A stretch of 64,000 nt of DNA from Chloroflexota bacterium (GTDB lineage Bacteria > Chloroflexota > Anaerolineae > Anaerolineales > VGOW01), in contig JACPWC010000001.1 in the NCBI GenBank assembly GCA_016197225.1, forward strand, positions 1-64,000, given 5' to 3'. Both the position numbers and the translations under genes were made by a program. Shown here in pieces: positions 9,122-63,852 of this stretch (position 1 is its first letter; the number at the start of each line of letters is the position of its first letter). The notes under the pieces were generated by a model. The model made no database searches, was not told the origin of the DNA, and saw nothing but the letters and a program-made list of their open reading frames with translations.

Positions 9122-9218
9122 TCTCACGAAGACACTAAGTCACAAAGACACAAAGGAAACTTGGTGGCTTCGTGGCTTCGTGTCTTTGTGTTTATATCAA
9201 CTTTGTGTTTATATCAAC
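9122..9218. repeat. CGAAGACAC-type palindromic repeat plus 17-bp tandem duplication
   Basis: An imperfect inverted repeat (arms at 9125-9155 and 9173-9190) of the class also found at 11227, 19484 and 24308. It is followed by two perfect tandem copies of TTTGTGTTTATATCAAC (9185-9201, 9202-9218). The second copy supplies the stop codon of the histidine phosphatase gene. Confidence 0.75.
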
Positions 9219-9882
9219 TGTTTGTCGCCCACCAGCCTGAAAGATGAACGTGTTCCTGATCCGGCTCGCCTTCGTAGTGTGAGACGTCGTTGAGCAACAT
9301 TAGGCGGGCGCGGGCCAGGTCACGAAAGTCGAGAATGTTGAGGCAAGCCGGTTGCTGGTCGAGCCGGTCGCGGTAGCCGCGCAGTTCAATGCCCAGATAA
9401 TGCCCAATGATAAGCCGGTTGGTCGCTTTGTGCGAGATGACGAAAATTGACTGATTCGGATGGGACATGACGATCTCGCGGATGGCCGGGATGGCGCGAG
9501 CCAGCACCGCCGCGCCGGTTTCGCCGCCGGGCGGGGCGTAACCGAACGGGTCGGAGTCCCAGGCCTCCATCTCGCCGGGGTAGCGCGTCTTCACCTCAGC
9601 CCGGCTCAGGCCCTCCCAGTGGCCGTGATCGATCTCGCGCAAGCCGTCCACTGATTGCGGCTTGAGGCTGTGCGGCGCGCCAAGAATCGTCGCCGTCTCA
9701 ACCGTCCGATCCAGCGGACTGCAATAGATCGCCGCCGGCTTTTGCGCCGCCAGCCGTCTAGTCAGATGTTGCGCCTGATTTCGCCCAACGTCAGAAAGTT
9801 GCACGTTCGACGCCCCGGCGAATCGATCTTCGGCAGAGGCCGTTGTGGCCGCGTGGCGGATGAGATGAACGCGTGTGGTCAT
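9214..9882 (-). CDS. Histidine phosphatase family protein (phosphoglycerate mutase-like)
   Basis: A 222-residue protein of the phosphoglycerate mutase/acid phosphatase branch. The catalytic RH pair lies at residues 9-10 in VHLIRHAAT. SPLDRTVETA follows near 56-65, REIDHGHWEGLSRAEV gives the usual acid region, and VISHKATNRLIIGHYLG carries the second catalytic His. The substrate is unknown. Its place between gnd and zwf hints at a sugar-phosphate or related metabolite, which is inference only. No clear Shine-Dalgarno precedes ATG 9882. The last codons and stop come from an intergenic tandem repeat, so the C-terminus may have been changed by repeat growth. Confidence 0.85.
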   Translation of the reverse strand: MTTRVHLIRHAATTASAEDRFAGASNVQLSDVGRNQAQHLTRRLAAQKPAAIYCSPLDRTVETATILGAPHSLKPQSVDGLREIDHGHWEGLSRAEVKTRYPGEMEAWDSDPFGYAPPGGETGAAVLARAIPAIREIVMSHPNQSIFVISHKATNRLIIGHYLGIELRGYRDRLDQQPACLNILDFRDLARARLMLLNDVSHYEGEPDQEHVHLSGWWATNS

Positions 9883-40921: not shown

Positions 40922-41674
40922 ATGAAACTTCTCCAGGCGCTTAAAGTGGCTCCGGGTGACGTCGTCGCCTTTGTAGGCGGCGGGGGCAAGACCACAGCCA
41001 TGTTCCGGCTGGCGGCGGAAATCATGGAGTCGGGCCAGCGGGTCGTTACCACCACCACCACCCGCATCTTCGCCGCCCAGACCCGCCTCGCGCCCGTTCA
41101 CGTCCAATCGCTGGCCGGCTTGCAATTCGCCCTGCAAACCTCACCTCACGTTCTGCTCACCGGCGAAGTTGATCCGGTTGAAGGCAAAGCGTTTGGTGTT
41201 TCGCCGGAAACAATCCAAAATATAAACTCCCAAATCCCAAATCCCCAAATCCCAATTCTGATTGAGGCCGACGGCTCGCGTATGAGGCCTTTCAAAGCGC
41301 CCGCCGAGCACGAGCCGGTGATTCCTGATTGTGTGACGCTGGTAGTGGCAGTGATTGGTGTTGAGGTGATTGGCAAGCCGCTGAATGAGAGGCACGTTCA
41401 CCGCCCGGAGTTAGTAGCCGACATCTACTCTGGCGAGACGGTGACACCGGAGATGGTTGCGGCGGTGTTGTCGAGTCCGCTCGGCGGGCGAAAGAATGTG
41501 CCTGCCGGGGCGCGCTTCATCCTGCTCATCAATAAAGTTGAGAGCGATGAGCAACTGCAAACGGCGCGAGCGATTGCCGGGCTGTTGCTGAAGGCGAGCG
41601 GCGTTGACGGCGTGGTGATTGGCGCAGTGGGGCGGGAGGGGGAGCCGGTGGTGGAATTGGCGAATGAGGAATGA
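40922..41674 (+). CDS. yqeC: YqeC-type accessory protein for selenium-dependent Mo hydroxylases
   Basis: A 250-residue P-loop protein (VVAFVGGGGKTTAMFRLA) followed by TTTTTRIF, LIEADGSRMRPFKAPAEHEPVIP and LLINKVESDEQL, matching the YqeC family tied to selenium-dependent molybdenum hydroxylases. No such hydroxylase is nearby. An AT-rich repeat (41214-41264) is translated in frame as NINSQIPNPQIP before LIEADGS. The C-terminus (ELANEE) runs into another repeat. ATG 40922 has GGAG upstream. Confidence 0.85.
   Translation: MKLLQALKVAPGDVVAFVGGGGKTTAMFRLAAEIMESGQRVVTTTTTRIFAAQTRLAPVHVQSLAGLQFALQTSPHVLLTGEVDPVEGKAFGVSPETIQNINSQIPNPQIPILIEADGSRMRPFKAPAEHEPVIPDCVTLVVAVIGVEVIGKPLNERHVHRPELVADIYSGETVTPEMVAAVLSSPLGGRKNVPAGARFILLINKVESDEQLQTARAIAGLLLKASGVDGVVIGAVGREGEPVVELANEE
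41214..41264. repeat. CCAAATCCC tandem repeat inside yqeC, in frame
   Basis: Near-tandem CCCAAAT units insert about a dozen Asn/Gln/Pro/Ile residues. Base composition is unlike the rest of the gene. Confidence 0.75.
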
Positions 41675-41710
41675 CGAATGGCAAATGGCAATTTGCCTTT
41701 CGTCGCAGTA
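41657..41710. repeat. GAATGACGAATGGCAAAT repeat over the yqeC stop
   Basis: Near-tandem units (GCGAATGAGGAATGACGAATGG, with a following inverted part) contain the stop codon of yqeC. Confidence 0.5.
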
Positions 41711-52868: not shown

Positions 52869-52871
52869 TGT

Positions 52872-52936
52872 ATCCACAGATTTCGCAGATTTTCGCAGAT
52901 TGACTCTATCTGTGTAAATCTATGAAACCTGTGGTT
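52872..52936. repeat. CCACAGATTTCGCAGATT-type palindromic repeat
   Basis: The arms TCCACAGATTTCGCAGATT and AATCTATGAAACCTGTGGTTT form an imperfect palindrome between two membrane protein genes. Relatives lie at 31562 and 63793. Confidence 0.8.
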
Positions 52937-52946
52937 TGAGTTGATT

Positions 52947-55900
52947 ATGTCTGAAAGCACAGCCGCCGACGAAATAGAAATGCCGGGTTCCGAACTTCAG
53001 CCGCCGATGACGGGCGGCGTGATTGATTCCACTCTGGCACTCACCGAAGCCCGCGAAGTTGAACGCGCCGCGCCGCGAACTGCCAGCCTGGACTGGCGCG
53101 GTCTGGCGGTTGACCTCTTGCTCGTCCTCCTCGTCGCCGCCGGTTTGTACTTCCGCTTCAGTTGGACAAATTGGAACCAGGGCACCGACCTGCACCCGGA
53201 CGAATACGGCCTCACCGGCACCCTCACTCAACTCCATATTCCCAAATCTCTGGGCGAGTATTTCAACACCCGCATCTCGCCGATGAGTCCGTATCAGAAA
53301 TATGACATTGACGGCCTGCCCATCCCGCCCGACCCGGAGTACCCGGTTCCCGACAACCGCATGAGGTGGGGCCAGTGGCCGCTCACCATCATTCGCTTCG
53401 CCGCCGAAGTCACCGGCAACACCGATTACACCAAGTTGCGACTCATGGGCCGCCAGCTCTCGGCCCTGGCCGACAGCCTGTCTTTGCTGATCATTTTCCT
53501 GATCGGCTCACGTTTATACAACCGGCGCGTTGGCTTGCTGGCCGCGGCCCTCAGCGCCCTGGCCGTCATGCAGATTCAGCAGTCGCACTTTATGACGGCG
53601 GACAACATCGCCGGGACGTTCACGGCCTTGACCATGTATTTCGCCGTCCGGGCGGCGCAGGCCGTCCCCGTCACCGGAGAGCGGGCGACAGGGAAAGGGA
53701 GTCGCTATCGCGATTGGCTTTGGTATGTTCTCTTCGGCGTTTCTTTCGGCATGGCCCTGGCCTCGCGCATCAACCTCCTGCCGCTGTTCGGCGAGATTCT
53801 GGCGGCGGCCTTCATTGCTTACACCGACCGCTGGCTCAAGGCGCAAAAAGAGGGGCGCGACCCAACCAACCTGTTGATCGAAGCCGGCTGGCGGATCGCG
53901 TTGGCCGCCGTGTTTGCTTTCATCGCTTTCCGCGTCACCCAGCCCATGTCCTTCCGCGCCGAGACAGGCGACACGACCCTCTTCACGATTAAACCGAATC
54001 CGGAATGGTCGGAGAGCATGGCTGTGGCTCAGGCCGAGTCGAGCGGCATCGGCGGCGGCCCGCCCGGCGAGCAATGGACAAATCGCCCGGCGCTGATCTT
54101 CCCCTTCATCAACATGGTGATCTGGGGCATGGGCCTGCCGCTTGGCCTGGCGGCCTGGGCCGGTTTGGCCTGGGCGGCCTGGCGCTCGCTCAACACTTCA
54201 GCCTGGCGGCTTCATCTTTTACCGCTCACCTGGGCCGGCGGTTACTTCCTGTTCATGGGCACGCGCTGGGTCAAGTCCGTTCGCTACTTCCTGCCCATCT
54301 ATCCTTTCATGGCCCTGTTTGCGGCGTGGGCGGTTTACGAGTTGTGGGCGATGGCGAAACGTGATAAAGACGAAGGACCGCTTCGCGAGACGAAGGACGA
54401 ACGCAAACCTTCGTCTATCGTCTATCGTCTGTCGTCGGCGGCGCTCTTCGCTGTCGTCACCCTCGGCACCCTCACCTGGGCCTGGGGCTTCACCAGCATT
54501 TACCGGACTGACAACTCGCGTATCCAGGCCTCCAGGTGGATTTACCAAAACGTCCCCGCCGCTTTCAACCTGACTCTCGATACAGCCGACGGCGTTTATG
54601 TTGAGCCGATCTCTGCGCCCTTCCCGGCGCAAATCGCCGGCGACCAGCCTTTGCTGGCCGTGCTTGAACCACGCGTGAGCGGCACAGTAAATTCAGTAAC
54701 AGTTGGACATGCACGCGACCTGGCCGGCGCTTCAACCGCCATCTTGCATGTCGTCCTCTCGGCCAACCCTGAAGGCACGCAACCGCTGGCTCAGACTGAC
54801 GTGATCATCGAAACGGAAGACCCCGGCCTGCCGGGCGGCACGTTCATCGCGCCGCTCGGCCCCGTCCAACTGGAGAAGGGCACGCGTTATTACCTTCTCG
54901 CCTCAGGCGGGCCGGAAAACTTTTTGGAAGTGACAGGGTCGGCCATTGCCAATGAGTCGTGGGACGAAGGCCTGCCGCTGCGAATAGAAGGGCGCGACGG
55001 GTTTGGCGGCCTCTATCGTGGCCTGACGATGGAAATGCGCTGGGGCGACGACGAGAACAAGCGCCAGATGATCATCAACAACCTGACTGAGGTTGATTAC
55101 CTCATCCTGCCCAGCCAGCGCGCCATCTGGAGCGCCTCGCGCCTGCCCAACGCCTACCTGATGACGATGGAATACTATCGCGCCTTGTTCGATGGCCGAT
55201 TAGGCTTCGACCTCGTCGCCCAATTCCAATCGCCGATCACCATTGGCCCGCTTCAAATCTCCGACGTGGCCGGGTCTGTGGCCTGGGGCCGCCAACCCGA
55301 CCTGCCGATCTCTAAAGCCGAACCCTGGAACGACAACATCTTCTCAGCCGAGGAGGCCTTCAGCGTTTACGACCACGCGCCGGTGTGGGTCTTCAAGAAG
55401 CGCGCCGACTTCACCATTGAGAAAGCCTCGGCGGTGCTTTATGCTGTTGACCTGACCCGGGTCGTCAATCAAGGGCCGCGCGAGGCCACTGCCGCCCCGA
55501 CTCTGCTCATGTTGCCGCGTGATCGCGTGACTGAGCAACAGGCGGGCGGAACCTGGTCGCAAATGTTCAACCGGAACAGCCCGCTCAATGCGATTGAACC
55601 GCTGGGCGTCGTGGCCTGGTGGCTCACCGTCGTTTTATTGGGGTGGCTGGCTTTCCCCATTACCTTCGTTGCCTTCAGCGGCCTTCATGATCGCGGCTTC
55701 GCCTTCACCCGCAACGTCTCACTGTTGCTAATTTCCTGGACGGCCTGGTTGTTAGCCAGCGTTCAACTTCTGCCCTTCACTCAGTTAACGCTGTGGCTGG
55801 TGGCGCTGGCCCTGGTTCCGGTGTCGGCCTTCATCGTCTGGCGGCGCGGGAGCGAGATCAAGGCCTGGCTGGCCGAAAACCGGCGCTATGTGTTGATCGT

Positions 55901-58088
55901 CGAAATACTCTCGCTGGGCTTCTTCGTCTTCTTCCTGCTCATCCGGCTGGGCAACCCCGACTTGTGGCATCCGTCTTATGGCGGCGAGAAGCCAATGGAC
56001 TTTTCGTACTTCAACGCCGTTCTCAAGAGCACTTCGTTCCCGCCTTACGATCCCTGGTTTGCCGGCGGTTACTTGAACTACTACTATTACGGTTTTGTCA
56101 TCGTCGCCACCGTCACCAAGATGCTGGGCATCGTGCCGTCGTTTGCCTACAACCTCATTCTGCCTATGTTGTTCTCGCTCGTCGGTATCGGCGCGTTTGG
56201 CGTGGCTTACAACTTAGTGGCGAGCAGCCGGAAACCAAAAGCTGAAGAATCAATCAATAACCAATACCCAATTACCAAAACCGCCAACCCCTACTTCGCC
56301 GGCCTCGCCGCCGCTTTGCTCTTTGTGGCGCTAGGCAACCTGGGCCAGAAGGACGTGATTATGAAGGCCCTGACGCGAGCCGGGGCGGACGTTCAAACGG
56401 CCTCGCCGCTCTTTGCCGATCTTCAGCGGGCGGCAGTGGGCGCGTGGCGCATTTACGTAGAACGCCAGCCGACGCCGATCGGCACGGGCGAGTGGTATTG
56501 GAACGCCACTCGCGTCACCCCCGAAGTGACGATTGCCGAGTTTCCATTCTTTACCTTCCTTTACGCCGACCTGCACGCACACATGATTGTGCTTTCCATG
56601 TCAGTCGTCACCCTCGGCTGGATCGTGTCGTTGGTGAACAACGCCCGGAGCGGGAAGCGGCCTGGTTGGTTAGAGACGGTTGCTCTGTGGGCAATCGGCG
56701 GGCTGGCCTTTGGCGTCATCCAGCCCTCAAACTTGTCGGACTATCAAACTTACTGGCTGCTGGGGGGTGTAGCAATTTTCTATGCCGAGTATCTCAAGCA
56801 CGGCAAGTTTAGCATCCGGTTCTTGATTGACGTGAGTTGGCGGTGCATACTTTTGATCGGCCTGGCCAGTGTGCTCTTCCGGCCTTACACGGCCTGGCGC
56901 GGCGAAGGCTACGGCGCAATCGAACTCTGGAAGGGCGACCGCACACCGCTCGACTCTTACATCATCATTCACGGCTTGTTCCTGTTCATCGCCCTCGGCT
57001 TCCTGCTGGTCGAGACGCGGCGCTGGATGCAAAAGACGACGCTCGACGAAGTGAGAGACTTGATCAACCCGGCCCTGTTCACGCTGGCCGTGTTTGTAGT
57101 ATTTGTGATCGGGTTATGGCTTGCCGGTTACAAGGTTGCCGTCATTGCCCTGCCGCTCGTCGCCTGGACGGGCTTGTTGATGATCCGGCCCGACGCCGAA
57201 CCGGAACGGCGGGTGACGCTGGCGCTGTTTGGCCTCGGCCTGCTGTTGACGATGGTGGTGGAAGTCGTCGTGGCCAAGGGCGACATTGGCCGGATGAACA
57301 CCCAGTTCAAGTTTTACCTTCAGGTGTGGACGTTCCTGAGCGTGGCCTCCGGCCCGGCTCTGGCCTGGGTCTGGGCGCAGATGCCGGAGTGGGTATCGCT
57401 CAACCGCCGGGTCTGGCAGATAGCGCTGGCCGTGCTGGTTGTGGTGGCCGCGTCTTACACGGCGACTGCGGCTTCGGCCAAAATACGCGATCGTTTCCCT
57501 CAACGCACGGCGGTCTTGGACTCAACCGAACCGGGCGTTGATTGCAAAGCCATCCCTGGAATGCCGTTGCTGTACACCCAGAGTTCAGATGTGAAAGATC
57601 AACCTCACAGTTTGGATGGCATGGATTATATGCAGTGGAGCGCGCATTGCGATCAGGGCTACTACATCCCGCTCAAGTACGATTACGACGCCATCCGCTG
57701 GATGCAGGACAATGTTCAAGGCTCGCCGGTGATTGTGGAAGTGAACACGCCGGAGTATCGCTGGGGATCGCGGTATACGATCAACACCGGCCTCCCCGGC
57801 GTTGTCGGCTGGAACTGGCACCAGCGGCAGCAGCGCGGCGTCGTCGTCTCTGATACTCTGGTCACCAAGCGCGTGGAAGACATCGGCCTGTTTTATTCGA
57901 CGCTGGACGAAACCGAAGCGCAAGCTTTTCTAAAGAAATACAATGTAAGCTACATTGTGGTCGGCGGCTACGAATTGGCCTACTACCCGCCCGAATCGTT
58001 CGTCAAGTTCGAGCGCATGGTGGATGCCGGCCTGTTGAAGGCCGCCTACCAGAATGACGGCGTGGTGATTTACGAGGTGGTGAAGTAG
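52947..58088 (+). CDS. Giant GT39-like / DUF2298 (Chlor_Arch_YYY) fusion membrane protein
   Basis: A 1713-residue membrane protein. The N-terminal half (to about 850) is GT39-like: HPDEYGLTGTL puts the DE motif in the first loop, several helices follow, then a large soluble beta-rich part. From about residue 900 comes a DUF2298/Chlor_Arch_YYY domain: MDFSYFNAVLKS, DPWFAGGYLNYYYYGF (about 1040), EFPFFTFLYADLHAHM and RMNTQFKFYLQVW, then a soluble end (YIVVGGYELAYYPPESFVKF). The function is unknown; a lipid-linked sugar transferase is likely. Repeats at 54361-54437 and 56249-56280 are translated in frame. ATG 52947 is preferred to TTG 52941. Confidence 0.85.
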   Translation: MSESTAADEIEMPGSELQPPMTGGVIDSTLALTEAREVERAAPRTASLDWRGLAVDLLLVLLVAAGLYFRFSWTNWNQGTDLHPDEYGLTGTLTQLHIPKSLGEYFNTRISPMSPYQKYDIDGLPIPPDPEYPVPDNRMRWGQWPLTIIRFAAEVTGNTDYTKLRLMGRQLSALADSLSLLIIFLIGSRLYNRRVGLLAAALSALAVMQIQQSHFMTADNIAGTFTALTMYFAVRAAQAVPVTGERATGKGSRYRDWLWYVLFGVSFGMALASRINLLPLFGEILAAAFIAYTDRWLKAQKEGRDPTNLLIEAGWRIALAAVFAFIAFRVTQPMSFRAETGDTTLFTIKPNPEWSESMAVAQAESSGIGGGPPGEQWTNRPALIFPFINMVIWGMGLPLGLAAWAGLAWAAWRSLNTSAWRLHLLPLTWAGGYFLFMGTRWVKSVRYFLPIYPFMALFAAWAVYELWAMAKRDKDEGPLRETKDERKPSSIVYRLSSAALFAVVTLGTLTWAWGFTSIYRTDNSRIQASRWIYQNVPAAFNLTLDTADGVYVEPISAPFPAQIAGDQPLLAVLEPRVSGTVNSVTVGHARDLAGASTAILHVVLSANPEGTQPLAQTDVIIETEDPGLPGGTFIAPLGPVQLEKGTRYYLLASGGPENFLEVTGSAIANESWDEGLPLRIEGRDGFGGLYRGLTMEMRWGDDENKRQMIINNLTEVDYLILPSQRAIWSASRLPNAYLMTMEYYRALFDGRLGFDLVAQFQSPITIGPLQISDVAGSVAWGRQPDLPISKAEPWNDNIFSAEEAFSVYDHAPVWVFKKRADFTIEKASAVLYAVDLTRVVNQGPREATAAPTLLMLPRDRVTEQQAGGTWSQMFNRNSPLNAIEPLGVVAWWLTVVLLGWLAFPITFVAFSGLHDRGFAFTRNVSLLLISWTAWLLASVQLLPFTQLTLWLVALALVPVSAFIVWRRGSEIKAWLAENRRYVLIVEILSLGFFVFFLLIRLGNPDLWHPSYGGEKPMDFSYFNAVLKSTSFPPYDPWFAGGYLNYYYYGFVIVATVTKMLGIVPSFAYNLILPMLFSLVGIGAFGVAYNLVASSRKPKAEESINNQYPITKTANPYFAGLAAALLFVALGNLGQKDVIMKALTRAGADVQTASPLFADLQRAAVGAWRIYVERQPTPIGTGEWYWNATRVTPEVTIAEFPFFTFLYADLHAHMIVLSMSVVTLGWIVSLVNNARSGKRPGWLETVALWAIGGLAFGVIQPSNLSDYQTYWLLGGVAIFYAEYLKHGKFSIRFLIDVSWRCILLIGLASVLFRPYTAWRGEGYGAIELWKGDRTPLDSYIIIHGLFLFIALGFLLVETRRWMQKTTLDEVRDLINPALFTLAVFVVFVIGLWLAGYKVAVIALPLVAWTGLLMIRPDAEPERRVTLALFGLGLLLTMVVEVVVAKGDIGRMNTQFKFYLQVWTFLSVASGPALAWVWAQMPEWVSLNRRVWQIALAVLVVVAASYTATAASAKIRDRFPQRTAVLDSTEPGVDCKAIPGMPLLYTQSSDVKDQPHSLDGMDYMQWSAHCDQGYYIPLKYDYDAIRWMQDNVQGSPVIVEVNTPEYRWGSRYTINTGLPGVVGWNWHQRQQRGVVVSDTLVTKRVEDIGLFYSTLDETEAQAFLKKYNVSYIVVGGYELAYYPPESFVKFERMVDAGLLKAAYQNDGVVIYEVVK
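54361..54437. repeat. GACGAAGGAC palindromic repeat inside the fusion gene, in frame
   Basis: The arms GACGAAGGACGAACGC-like and CTTCGTCTATCGTC-like are translated as a charged loop (KDEGPLRETKDERKPSS) between two membrane helices. Confidence 0.75.
56249..56280. repeat. AATCAATAACCAATACC repeat inside the fusion gene, in frame
   Basis: AT-rich near-tandem units are translated as SINNQYPITK in the loop that follows the GAFGVAYNLV helix. A similar AATAACCAATAACC stretch lies at 27048-27068 next to the SIMPL stop. Confidence 0.7.
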
Positions 58089-58089
58089 G

Positions 58090-58114
58090 GCGATTTGCCC
58101 GCTTCGCGTCGCTC
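58090..58114. repeat. 25-bp dispersed repeat, copy 2
   Basis: Identical to 41969-41993, again directly after a TAG stop, here that of the giant fusion gene. Confidence 0.85.
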
Positions 58115-58138
58115 TACAGCGGATTTTAGGCTCTGGCC

Positions 58139-58738
58139 GTGTATAACTCTGAAGAACGTGTGACCGACTTGCTTCGCGCCGCCCTGGGGGGCGACGACTC
58201 GGCGGTGGAGGCCCTCTTCCGGCAGTTCAGCCCGGCGGTGTTCCGGCTGGCGGCCAGCTTGCTCAACGACGCCGACGATGCCGAGGAAGTGACTCAGGAT
58301 ACGTTTGTGTACGCGCTGAAGAATCTGGGCCACTACGACCCGGCCCGCTCGGCGCTTCAGACCTGGCTCTTCACCATTGCCGTTAGCCGGTGCCGCAACA
58401 AGCGGCGGCGCAAGTGGCTGGAGACCGTGCCACTGGCGTGGTTTGCCCGCCACGAATCGCGGCGCGGCTCAATCCGTTCGCTGGAAGACTGGCTGGCGGC
58501 GCGAGGCGTTCAGCGCGAACTGTGGGCGGCGGTGCAAGCCCTCTCACCCAAACTGCGCGAAGCCGTCCTACTGCGCTTCGTCGGCGACCTGCCTTACGCC
58601 GAAATTGGCGAGGCCGTTGGTTGCGGCGCAAAAGCCGCTGAGTCTCGGGTGCGAACCGGCATTGTGGCGCTCAGGAAACAGTTGGCGGCTCCGGGCGCCC
58701 CGCAAGAGGAGTGGCTGGAGGCGCTGGACGCGACTTGA
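58139..58738 (+). CDS. ECF-type RNA polymerase sigma factor
   Basis: A 199-residue group 4 sigma factor. Region 2 is SPAVFRLAASLLNDADDAEEVTQDTFVYALKNL, with the basic stretch SRCRNKRRRKW after it; region 4 is VQALSPKLREAVLLRFVGDLPYAEIGEAVGCGAKAAESRV. Region 3 is absent, as expected. GTG 58139 is the probable start. It is followed by an anti-sigma gene and sits inside the glycan block, so it may switch on these or other envelope genes. No consensus ECF promoter is obvious upstream. Confidence 0.93.
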   Translation: MYNSEERVTDLLRAALGGDDSAVEALFRQFSPAVFRLAASLLNDADDAEEVTQDTFVYALKNLGHYDPARSALQTWLFTIAVSRCRNKRRRKWLETVPLAWFARHESRRGSIRSLEDWLAARGVQRELWAAVQALSPKLREAVLLRFVGDLPYAEIGEAVGCGAKAAESRVRTGIVALRKQLAAPGAPQEEWLEALDAT

Positions 58739-58751
58739 TGGCGTTGTTCTG

Positions 58752-58820
58752 AGCGGGTGCGAGTAGGAGCGCTTTGCAAGCGCGATGTTTTTAGAGAGGC
58801 CGGACGACTGTCCGGCCTTT
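58752..58820. repeat. Repeat and hairpin between the sigma and anti-sigma genes
   Basis: GAGCGCTTTGCAAGCGC (part of a palindrome) is followed by the stem AGGCCGGAC/GTCCGGCCT with TTT after it. It could weaken transcription into the anti-sigma gene. Confidence 0.5.
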
Positions 58821-58830
58821 GCCTGAAAAA

Positions 58831-59307
58831 ATGGAACACGTTTCTGAAGAACTACTACTGGTTTACATTGAAAATCGGCTCGGACCTGAGGCGCGGGCGC
58901 GAGTCAACTCGCATTTGCGCGAGTGCGAAGTCTGCCGGGCCGAGGCCGCCGAAGCCCGGCAAACGCACGCGGCTCTGAAGATTGCCGCCCAGGCCTTGTC
59001 GCGTTTGCCATTGCCACCTCTGGCCTGGGCAGGCGTGCGCGACCGGCTTGGCCGCCCCGGCATTTTGCCCGCCGTCCGACGGTCGTGGCAAGTGGCGGCC
59101 AGCACAGCGGTGGTGGTGATGGCCCTGGTTTCCAACCTCACGCTCAACGCCGCGCGGGCGGCGACGCCCAGCGTCCCGGCCATTCAGACTCCTGCCGCCC
59201 ATAGCATCGTTTTGGACACGGCAACGGTTGAAGCGACTCGTGACTTGCCGCTCACCGACTCTACGTTTACGCCGACGCTGACCCCCGGGCCGGGAGCAAC
59301 GAATTAA
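58831..59307 (+). CDS. Zinc-finger anti-sigma factor
   Basis: A 158-residue membrane-bound anti-sigma factor. The N-terminal cytoplasmic part has the ZAS motif HLRECEVC (His-x3-Cys-x2-Cys, about residues 28-35). A membrane helix follows at about 87-110 (VAASTAVVVMALVSNLTL), then a Thr/Ala/Pro-rich outer tail. It should hold the upstream sigma factor inactive until an envelope signal releases it. ATG 58831 is used rather than TTG 58819. No strong Shine-Dalgarno is present. Confidence 0.88.
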   Translation: MEHVSEELLLVYIENRLGPEARARVNSHLRECEVCRAEAAEARQTHAALKIAAQALSRLPLPPLAWAGVRDRLGRPGILPAVRRSWQVAASTAVVVMALVSNLTLNAARAATPSVPAIQTPAAHSIVLDTATVEATRDLPLTDSTFTPTLTPGPGATN

Positions 59308-59310
59308 CTT

Positions 59311-61896
59311 ATGCCTGATTTGCTTGCGTTTTTTCTGTGGTGGTTGATCGTCACCATTTTTGGTTTCGTCGCCTGGCCCATCCTTTTCTGGTTCTTCCGT
59401 TTCCTCCCCGATCGCGGTTATAGCCTTTCAAAGACCGGCGGCCTGCTGGCGGTGGGTTACGTGGGCTGGTTGCTGGGCAACTTTGGCTTTGTGCTGGTCA
59501 ACCCCGGCGGCGTGGTCGCCGCCCTGCTCATCGTCGGCGTCCTTTCTGCATTTGCCTTGCGAAGCGGCAACTCTGCCGAGATGGGAAAGTGGCTGAGGCA
59601 AAATTGGCAGGTGGTACTGATCACCGAGATCATCTTTCTGGCCGCCTTTGCTTTCTGGGCTTACGCCCGCGCCCTCAACCCCACCATCACCGCCACCGAA
59701 AAGCCGATGGAGTTTGCCTTTCTCAACTCGGTGCTTCGCACCGGAACCCAGCCGCCGGGCGATCCCTGGCTTTCGGGCTATGCCATCAGCTACTACTACT
59801 TTGGCTACATCATCATGGCCATGCTCATCTCGCTCTCCGGCGTTCTGCCGAGCGCGGGATTCAATTTGGGCATTGCCTTACTGTTTGCGCTCACGGCTCT
59901 AGGCGCATTTGGGGTGGTGTTGAATTTGATAGCAGGAGTCAGGAGTCAGGACTCAGGAGTCAGAGTTGGCAGGGCCATCATGCCCGCTCTGCTCGGCCCG
60001 CTGTTCATGTTGATCGGCAACCTCAACGGCTTCCTTGAAGTGATGCACAAGATGGGACTGTTTGGCGAGAGTTTCTGGGCGTGGCTGGACATCAAGTGGA
60101 CGAACGTGGCCCCGACTCTGCCCAGTGCCGGCTGGATGCCCGACCGTTTTCTGTGGTGGTGGCAGGCCTCGCGGGTGGTTCACGACATCAACCCTTTCAC
60201 TGGCGCAGAGATTGAAGTGATTGACGAGTTCCCCTTCTTTTCATTCTTGCTGGGCGACATGCACCCGCACGTGCTTGGCCTGCCGTTTGTTTTTCTGGCG
60301 ATTGCCTTTGCCCTGAACTTGTTTTTGATGGTGCAGACCAACGCCGACAAACCGCGTGCAACTGCTGAGACAAATGAACCAAATCAACAGATGACCTCAT
60401 TGGCTTGGCCGGAGTCGTTAGTGGTTACGGGAATTTCGAGAGCTTTCTCGTTCTTGAAATCCGATGATTGGCAACAATGGCTGCCGCCACTGGCCTGGCC
60501 TGATTTGCTGATTGGCGCAATTCTGCTCGGCGGCCTCTCGTTCCTGAACACCTGGGACTTCCCGATTTATATTTTCGTCGTCGTCGCCAGCTACACGGTG
60601 GCGCGCGGTTTGCGCGACAGTTGGGCAACGGATGTCTGGCGCGACGGCATTTCGCTCGGCGCTGGACTGGCGGTGTGCGGCGTGTTGTTATATTTGCCGT
60701 TCTACATCGGCTTCCGTTCGCAGTTGGGCGGCATTTTGCCGAACGTGATCTTTGCCACTCGCCTTCAGCAGTTCGCGGTCATGTTCGGCCCGTCGCTGTT
60801 TGTGGTGCTGGCCCTCATGGGCTGGCTTGTCGCTCGCCGCTGGCGAACAATGGAATGGCGGGGCGGGGCGATGATTGCTTTCTCTATTTTAGCCAGCCTC
60901 ATGATCGTCTGCGCGCTTTTGGCATTCTTCATCATCACCAGCGACCGGCCCGACGCGCAACAGGCTATTGACAGCATGATCGGGACGGCCAATTTGCAGG
61001 ATGTGTTGCCTCAGGTGTTGCGCCTGCGGTTGGAGCGGGCCGCCATGCCGCTCCTGCTCACGTTGCTATTGGCGGTTGCGGCGGCCTGGGTTTTCGCCCC
61101 GCGACAGAAAACGGATGACGAGCCGAGCCGGCCCAACCTTGATCTGACTCCCTTCGCCGTCATTTTGATCGCCACCGGGGCGCTTCTCACCCTCGGCCCG
61201 GAATTCGTCTACCTGCGCGATTTCTTCGGCTGGCGCATGAACACCGTCTTCAAGTTTTATTATCAGGCCTGGGTGATCTGGTCAATCGCCGCCGCGTTTG
61301 GAACGTATTTGCTTTTGCAGGCTCTGAAGCCGGTTGGCAAGACTCTGTTCGGGGCCGGGGTTGCCGCCGTGTTGGCCCTGGGCCTGATCTACCCCGTGCT
61401 GTCCACAACGACCATCACCGAAAACTGGATGGGCACAACGCGCGATCTCGAAGGCAACCCGTACGCCACGCTCGACGGCATGGCCTACATGGCAACCTCG
61501 CGAACGTCGGATTACGAAGCCATCAAGTTTTTGAATGCGACGGTGGCCGGGCGGCCCGTGATCGCCGAAGCAGTGGGCGGCAGTTACACGGAATATGCGC
61601 GGGTGGCGGCCCACACCGGTCTGCCGACGGTGATCGGCTGGCCGTTCCACGAACTGCAATGGCGCGGCAACACCGAAGCCTCCGGCGGGCGCGAGGACAA
61701 GATCAAGCTTCTTTATCAAGCGCCAACGTGGACAGAGGCGCAGGTAATTTTGGACGAGTTCAACATACGCTACGTTTACGTTGGCCCGATGGAAGCGGCG
61801 CAGTACGGCGCTGATGGCCTGGGCAAGTTTGCCCGGTTCATGCGCGTGATCTATCAGGCCGACGGCGTGACGATTTACGAACGGAAGGATAAATGA
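59311..61896 (+). CDS. DUF2298 (Chlor_Arch_YYY) membrane protein
   Basis: An 861-residue polytopic protein, the single-copy form of this family. It has MEFAFLNSVLRT, DPWLSGYAISYYYFGY (YYY at about 161), EFPFFSFLLGDMHPHVLG and RMNTVFKFYYQAW, all matching the C-terminal half of the giant fusion encoded upstream, and a soluble C-terminal domain (AHTGLPTVIGWPFHELQW, VYVGPMEAAQY). The function is unknown; the His/Asp/Glu motifs are candidates for a catalytic site outside the membrane. It starts three bases after the anti-sigma stop. A repeat at 59931-59967 is translated in frame. Confidence 0.88.
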   Translation: MPDLLAFFLWWLIVTIFGFVAWPILFWFFRFLPDRGYSLSKTGGLLAVGYVGWLLGNFGFVLVNPGGVVAALLIVGVLSAFALRSGNSAEMGKWLRQNWQVVLITEIIFLAAFAFWAYARALNPTITATEKPMEFAFLNSVLRTGTQPPGDPWLSGYAISYYYFGYIIMAMLISLSGVLPSAGFNLGIALLFALTALGAFGVVLNLIAGVRSQDSGVRVGRAIMPALLGPLFMLIGNLNGFLEVMHKMGLFGESFWAWLDIKWTNVAPTLPSAGWMPDRFLWWWQASRVVHDINPFTGAEIEVIDEFPFFSFLLGDMHPHVLGLPFVFLAIAFALNLFLMVQTNADKPRATAETNEPNQQMTSLAWPESLVVTGISRAFSFLKSDDWQQWLPPLAWPDLLIGAILLGGLSFLNTWDFPIYIFVVVASYTVARGLRDSWATDVWRDGISLGAGLAVCGVLLYLPFYIGFRSQLGGILPNVIFATRLQQFAVMFGPSLFVVLALMGWLVARRWRTMEWRGGAMIAFSILASLMIVCALLAFFIITSDRPDAQQAIDSMIGTANLQDVLPQVLRLRLERAAMPLLLTLLLAVAAAWVFAPRQKTDDEPSRPNLDLTPFAVILIATGALLTLGPEFVYLRDFFGWRMNTVFKFYYQAWVIWSIAAAFGTYLLLQALKPVGKTLFGAGVAAVLALGLIYPVLSTTTITENWMGTTRDLEGNPYATLDGMAYMATSRTSDYEAIKFLNATVAGRPVIAEAVGGSYTEYARVAAHTGLPTVIGWPFHELQWRGNTEASGGREDKIKLLYQAPTWTEAQVILDEFNIRYVYVGPMEAAQYGADGLGKFARFMRVIYQADGVTIYERKDK
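59931..59967. repeat. AGGAGTCAGGAGTC repeat inside the DUF2298 gene, in frame
   Basis: Four near-identical AGTCAGG units, one inverted, are translated as GVRSQDSGVR in the loop after the GAFGVVLNLI helix. Confidence 0.75.
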
Positions 61897-63792: not shown

Positions 63793-63852
63793 GTAACCAC
63801 AGATGACACTGATTGCACGGAATGAATCTGTGAAATCTGTGTAACCTGTGGT
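63793..63852. repeat. ACCACAGATGACACTGATT-type palindromic repeat
   Basis: The arms TAACCACAGATGACACTGATT and AATCTGTGAAATCTGTG...ACCTGTGGTT enclose a short centre. It starts right after the stop of the gene before. Confidence 0.8.

Follow-up and report, generated by a model that had tools for sequence, protein, structure and literature searches.

The two DUF2298 paralogues encoded in tandem in the window, the stretch of 64,000 nucleotides of Chloroflexota DNA analysed here, carry sequence-unrelated arrays of tandem 7-nt units in one and the same cytoplasmic loop, and in relatives that loop has acquired different heptamer arrays many times over. The arrays in this family lie almost exclusively on the cytoplasmic side of the inferred topology, and their units recur within the genome above chance. 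The features of the pair are collected in Table 1.

Table 1. Features of the tandem DUF2298 pair and its arrays (window positions)
Feature	Position	Strand	Basis or remark
Giant fusion gene P0001, 1713 aa	52947..58088	+	PMT-like GT-C module N-terminal, DUF2298/TIGR03662 domain C-terminal
Giant gene, third array, (CGAAGGA)-type then inverted (TCGTCTA)-type heptamers, RDKDEGPLRETKDERKPSSIVYRLSS	54368..54436	+	
Giant, end of pre-loop helix, GAFGVAYNLVA	56190..56222	+	AlphaFold helix 184-212 of domain model
Giant, cytoplasmic loop, model residues 213-234	56223..56288	+	AlphaFold, between helices 184-212 and 235-248
Giant, degenerate heptamer array TCAATCAATAACCAATACCCAATTACCAAA, encodes SINNQYPITK	56250..56279	+	AATTACC-type units also on other contigs
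Single DUF2298 paralogue P0002, 861 aa	59311..61896	+	PF10060 48-657, TIGR03662 4-857
Single, end of pre-loop helix, GAFGVVLNLIA	59902..59934	+	AlphaFold helix 180-211
Single, heptamer array (CAGGAGT)4.4	59933..59963	+	TRF; loop ahead of helix 219 onwards

Both genes match the DUF2298 and Chlor_Arch_YYY profiles over the full length and above the curated cut-offs, with 360 and 362 bits for PF10060 (cut-off 27.8) and 485 and 506 for TIGR03662 (cut-off 300). In the giant the matches comprise PMT_2 (149-299), Pfam PF10060 (928-1464) and TIGR03662 (886-1711), the DUF2298 domain starting at about residue 881. DUF2298 is present in 95 of 101 relatives, mostly as one giant and one single, so that the pair is conserved. 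Between the two genes of the window (58139-59307) are a 199-aa ORF resembling sigma-70 and one of 162 aa that may encode an anti-sigma factor and has an HxxxCxxC motif close to its start; in several relatives the giant and single genes are directly adjacent.

The original prediction had described two homologous helices followed by different repeat-encoded peptides, and both pairs, GAFGVAYNLVA then SINNQYPITK in the giant and GAFGVVLNLIA then GVRSQDSGVR in the single, were confirmed at their positions. The repeat units are indeed unrelated (CAGGAGT against AATAACC/AATTACC); the description of the repeats as 10-mers was wrong, and TRF and lag-7 analysis identify tandem heptamers instead. The array of the single, which encodes GVRSQDSGVR (59935-59964), has a lag-7 score of 18 with 0 expected, and its unit is also found on contigs C43 and C55 of the same genome. 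The array of the giant, CAATAACCAATACCCAATTACCAAA, is weaker (score 8, with 0.054 expected per shuffled domain) and represents a decayed AATAACC-AATACCC-AATTACC run of about three units, whose AATTACC/AACCAAT family turns up again and again at other places in the genome. In the N-terminal GT module, ahead of a hydrophobic stretch, the giant gene's third array encodes part of a K/R-rich charged linker. Six period-7 arrays are present in the whole window, against none in shuffles. At 41228-41255 a heptamer array (TCCCAAA) lies within the YqeC gene and encodes SQIPNPQIPI, and a second array (41662-41691) overlaps the end of that gene. Arrays of 8- to 10-nt units, apparently intergenic, occupy 9124-9219, 52871-52920 and 63825-63850, and those at 9124-9219 and 52871-52920 are paired as inverted arms (CACGAAGA.../CTTCGTGT...; ACAGATTTCGCAGATT...).

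Structure prediction of both proteins places the two arrays at equivalent, not differing, positions. The AlphaFold domain models, built from 43 and 51 sequences, reached mean pLDDT values of 91.8 and 91.0, and in both the array sits between the same two helices, which fall on identical core positions of the alignment (202 and 205). In the loop of the giant the block mean pLDDT drops to 52, and such low model confidence at the array stretch suggests a flexible loop, which is rich in K+R family-wide. In VIA-align 2 both models adopt a GT-C fold, nearest to STT3 (Z up to 17.9 and 14.1), with further matches to PMT, DPY19, AftA/B, ArnT and PglB (Z about 10-18 over most of the model), and the transmembrane architecture of the confident models likewise assigns them to GT-C. 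The two paralogues are ancient tandem GT-C-fold proteins and probably glycosyltransferases. Among sequences of solved structures the DUF2298 profile matched triosephosphate isomerase only, weakly and at an E value of 0.28 or worse, which was taken as noise.

The comparison was extended to 213 non-redundant Chloroflexota DUF2298 domains (no shared 60-mer), taken from relatives' loci and a contig scan of draft metagenome assemblies. These contain 76 period-7 arrays where codon shuffles give 0.4, an excess of about 190-fold; period 8 (20 arrays, 0.4 expected) and period 14 (50 arrays, 0 expected) are also enriched, whereas periods 4-6 and 10-11 are at or close to expectation. The arrays span about 20-110 nt and their units are arbitrary. 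Of the 96 period-7/8 arrays, 39-40 fall in the loop after the GAFGVxxNL helix, carried by 30 domains (20 singles and 10 giants), and three more cytoplasmic loops hold 23, 14 and 9, with some minor sites besides; the GAFGVxxNL loop is the commonest of about five array-bearing cytoplasmic loops and not a unique site. In the giant of a congeneric species (L044, genome G002) the same loop contains a compound insert of more than 200 nt, made of the families CAGGAGN, CAGTGGT and CACTCAR. A second hot loop, aligned with about residue 597 of the window's single and occupied in the singles L059, L135, L186 and L066, has long pure arrays such as (CATCCTC)7 of genome G039 and is a good candidate for unit-number variation.

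In a tree of the DUF2298 domains built without the array loop, the 99 giants are separated from the 114 singles, and the loop arrays require at least 21 changes by parsimony, sister sequences nearly always having different units. Together with the 30 of 213 domains occupied and the 33 of 33 loop heptamer units that are distinct, this bears out the proposal of independent insertion into one permissive loop. An array inherited by both paralogues from a common ancestor was rejected, since the units differ and most homologues have no array. Four other loci carry arrays in both paralogues, always of different units (0.84 expected, Fisher p = 0.003), and among four giants from the genus of the window, three have loop heptamer arrays, all different, and the fourth has none. 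Independence of the window's two insertions is thereby supported, the insertion events themselves being reconstructed from relatives.

A normally variable loop, which the original prediction regarded as evidence against insertion, was found in part: loops devoid of arrays do vary (median 27 and 32 residues between anchors, sd 7 and 13). As length varies where no array is detectable, the loop is permissive in general and not through repeats alone, repeats being just one of several sources of its variation; only a weak lag-7 residue, in six array-free loops (1.05 expected), points to decayed arrays. It is very improbable that the loop is simply long and variable and that its repeats are incidental low-complexity sequence produced by no separate process, because such an origin accounts for the variation of array-free loops but neither for an excess confined to particular periods nor for high-variance extracytoplasmic stretches being almost free of arrays.

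The topology on which the last point depends was derived from the GT-C alignment and the helix order; it is also backed by alignment to STT3 from its first TM, and the K+R content agrees with the assigned side for every loop (13.6-21.1 against 0-8.7 per 100 residues). On this inferred topology 88 of the 90 arrays that lie in assigned loops are on the cytoplasmic side, whereas cytoplasmic loops account for 25% of loop residues (p = 3e-50) and 48% of length variance (p = 1e-25). The bias also holds when genes are counted instead of arrays (66 to 2; p = 3e-37 and 4e-19). Shared ancestry makes the counts partly non-independent, but the distinct units suggest that most arrays are separate events. 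The topology test excluded five arrays lying at the N-terminal edge of singles, because stop-to-stop ORFs may place them upstream of the start codon. The proposal that arrays merely follow length variability was discarded, as several high-variance extracytoplasmic stretches hold none. Near-restriction to cytoplasmic loops, and the basic character of some encoded peptides (GVRSQDSGVR, DRRQES), would also be expected if selection maintained the peptides for a role of their own in the loop, such as binding a partner or controlling topology through positive charge. Such a function is nevertheless the least probable of the explanations considered, since sister sequences have unrelated units and peptides, other peptides (NNQYPIT, NYQLPIT) are neutral and arrays are absent from most homologues.

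Arrays of this kind are scattered through intergenic and coding DNA, the two being separated with a crude gene caller. The window's genome (G000), of which regions totalling 756 kb were sampled, the window among them, contains 64 period-7 and 32 period-8 arrays per Mb, and the genomes of two relatives 91 and 95 period-7 arrays per Mb. Besides DUF2298 genes they interrupt trpF, rsmG, yqeC and genes for a PBP, a TMEM260-like protein and a class-II glutamine amidotransferase, and the unit is free of stops on the sense strand in 71 of 76 coding arrays (93% against 74% expected), a modest excess. Units recur more within than between genomes and repertoires are largely genome-specific: the 48 arrays of the window's genome use 31 distinct units (46.6 expected, minimum 41 of 200). 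Among 301 Chloroflexota genomes, (CAATTAC)3 is found in nine, at up to 50 places (reversed control, 0), and (CAGGAGT)3 in three, at up to 42 places (reversed control, five places in two others). An inverted copy lies within 80 nt of 32 of 60 arrays in the window's genome (control, 0); such pairs are rarer in the two relatives (3 of 35 and 9 of 33). By exact-pattern search the loop units of G001 and G002 recur in their own genomes, while CCGTCCA, the loop unit of G014, forms no exact three-unit array elsewhere in that genome, so that a constant origin of loop units from elsewhere in the same genome is only partly true. A RAYT/Y1 transposase was considered as the mover and is not supported: the two Y1_Tnp genes have no clear heptamer array in the 3.3 kb around each, one weak 16-nt lag-7 hit being found at these loci in total.

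One rival explanation concerns how an array originates, not where it is tolerated. Local birth, in which 7-nt polymerase slippage would act on a chance seed and the loop would tolerate its growth, with no copying, is possible though not favoured. It agrees with the difference among all 33 loop units and with units that are exact only at their own locus, and in other bacteria heptamer repeats have been tied to polymerase slippage, and their excess to the DNA segment contacted by the polymerase (PMC4692102, PMC4679880); but units recur within the genome above chance, single units reach tens of places in one genome, and slippage alone does not make inverted pairs. Slippage in place is favoured by distinct, partly locus-restricted units and copying from existing arrays by units that recur and pair in inverted orientation, each being compatible with parts of the data.

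Since 7 is not divisible by 3, each unit gained or lost would shift the frame, and the arrays could switch the enzymes on and off by phase variation. The host proteins are probably builders of surface glycans, long and pure arrays do occur, as in G039, and 7-bp repeats control the phase-variable HMW1A of Haemophilus influenzae (PMC8262952). We nevertheless regard this as improbable: most arrays are imperfect, that of the giant above all, so that slippage would be damped; they lie mid-protein in loops and not close to start codons; similar repeats interrupt the housekeeping genes trpF, rsmG and that of the amidotransferase; and every domain examined is an open frame.

The reading that we consider most probable, with good confidence, is that arrays arrive blindly and are sorted by purifying selection. 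In the window's genome and its relatives, many short tandem arrays of 7 nt, some of 8 nt, often in inverted pairs, would arise or arrive regardless of the gene, and purifying selection would retain only those that are stop-free, in frame and located in flexible cytoplasmic loops, of which the GAFGVxxNL loop would be the most used. The window's two arrays would then be two separate events without evident function of their own. The period of 7, the shared structural loop, the independence of the arrays, the recurrence of units within a genome and, on the topology adopted, the bias to one side of the membrane are observed; blind arrival with selection, and neutrality, are what we infer. A bolder and rather doubtful extension is that the heptamer arrays, many of them in hairpin pairs, constitute a true dispersing class of Chloroflexota elements, spread by dedicated or template-switch copying, with membrane proteins across the order serving as insertion screens that record topology.

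A measurable rule emerges: within a single enzyme family, insertions that are independent and unrelated in sequence number in the dozens, and nearly all of them fall in cytoplasmic loops. The arrays would offer a ready natural map of insertion-tolerant protein sites, in which acceptance of a foreign peptide by a loop is directly testable, a readout of topology from DNA alone, and a setting with many replicates in which to ask why a 7-nt period is so frequent among bacterial repeats, a long-standing question, and whether such repeats spread by slippage or by copying. In the open-access literature we found no report of heptanucleotide repeats in Chloroflexi, an absence that is weak evidence, and nothing published on heptamers that recur in a single loop or on a cytoplasmic bias.

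As to the host proteins, residues 90-833 of the DUF2298 model share the GT-C fold with STT3/AglB/PglB, PMT, DPY19 and AftA/AftB, and the model has a C-terminal globular domain like that of AglB. Unlike the known GT-C enzymes, DUF2298 proteins have three extra N-terminal TM helices, and with only 8-15% sequence identity to the structural matches their glycosyltransferase role is predicted from the fold. As to the repeats, the Chloroflexota arrays resemble REP sequences with their RAYT genes in being short dispersed repeats able to form hairpins, but they are tandem whereas REPs are non-tandem palindromes, and a RAYT gene flanked by the repeats was not found. Rickettsia palindromic elements are dispersed repeats lying in frame in unrelated protein genes and apparently tolerated by the fold (PMC10969869). 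The heptamer arrays are likewise tolerated in frame inside protein genes, although as short arrays of arbitrary unit they differ from these elements, which are of about 150 bp and of defined sequence families, and do not belong to them. The closest comparison is with bacterial heptamer repeats, namely cyanobacterial STRR, Xanthomonas GGGAATC, Nostoc GGGGAYT and Beggiatoaceae TAACTGA (PMC4692102, PMC4679880). As in STRR, the Chloroflexota arrays consist of tandem 7-nt units (in the window, the 756 kb and the DUF2298 genes) and a single unit is dispersed at several loci (the CAGGAGT and CAATTAC families, on several contigs); as in STRR and the other bacterial heptamers, units are lineage-specific and mostly intergenic, with an intragenic minority (PMC4692102, PMC4679880). 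Unlike STRR, the Chloroflexota arrays comprise many unrelated units per genome and, in the window's genome, frequent inverted pairs, and they recur in frame in defined cytoplasmic loops.
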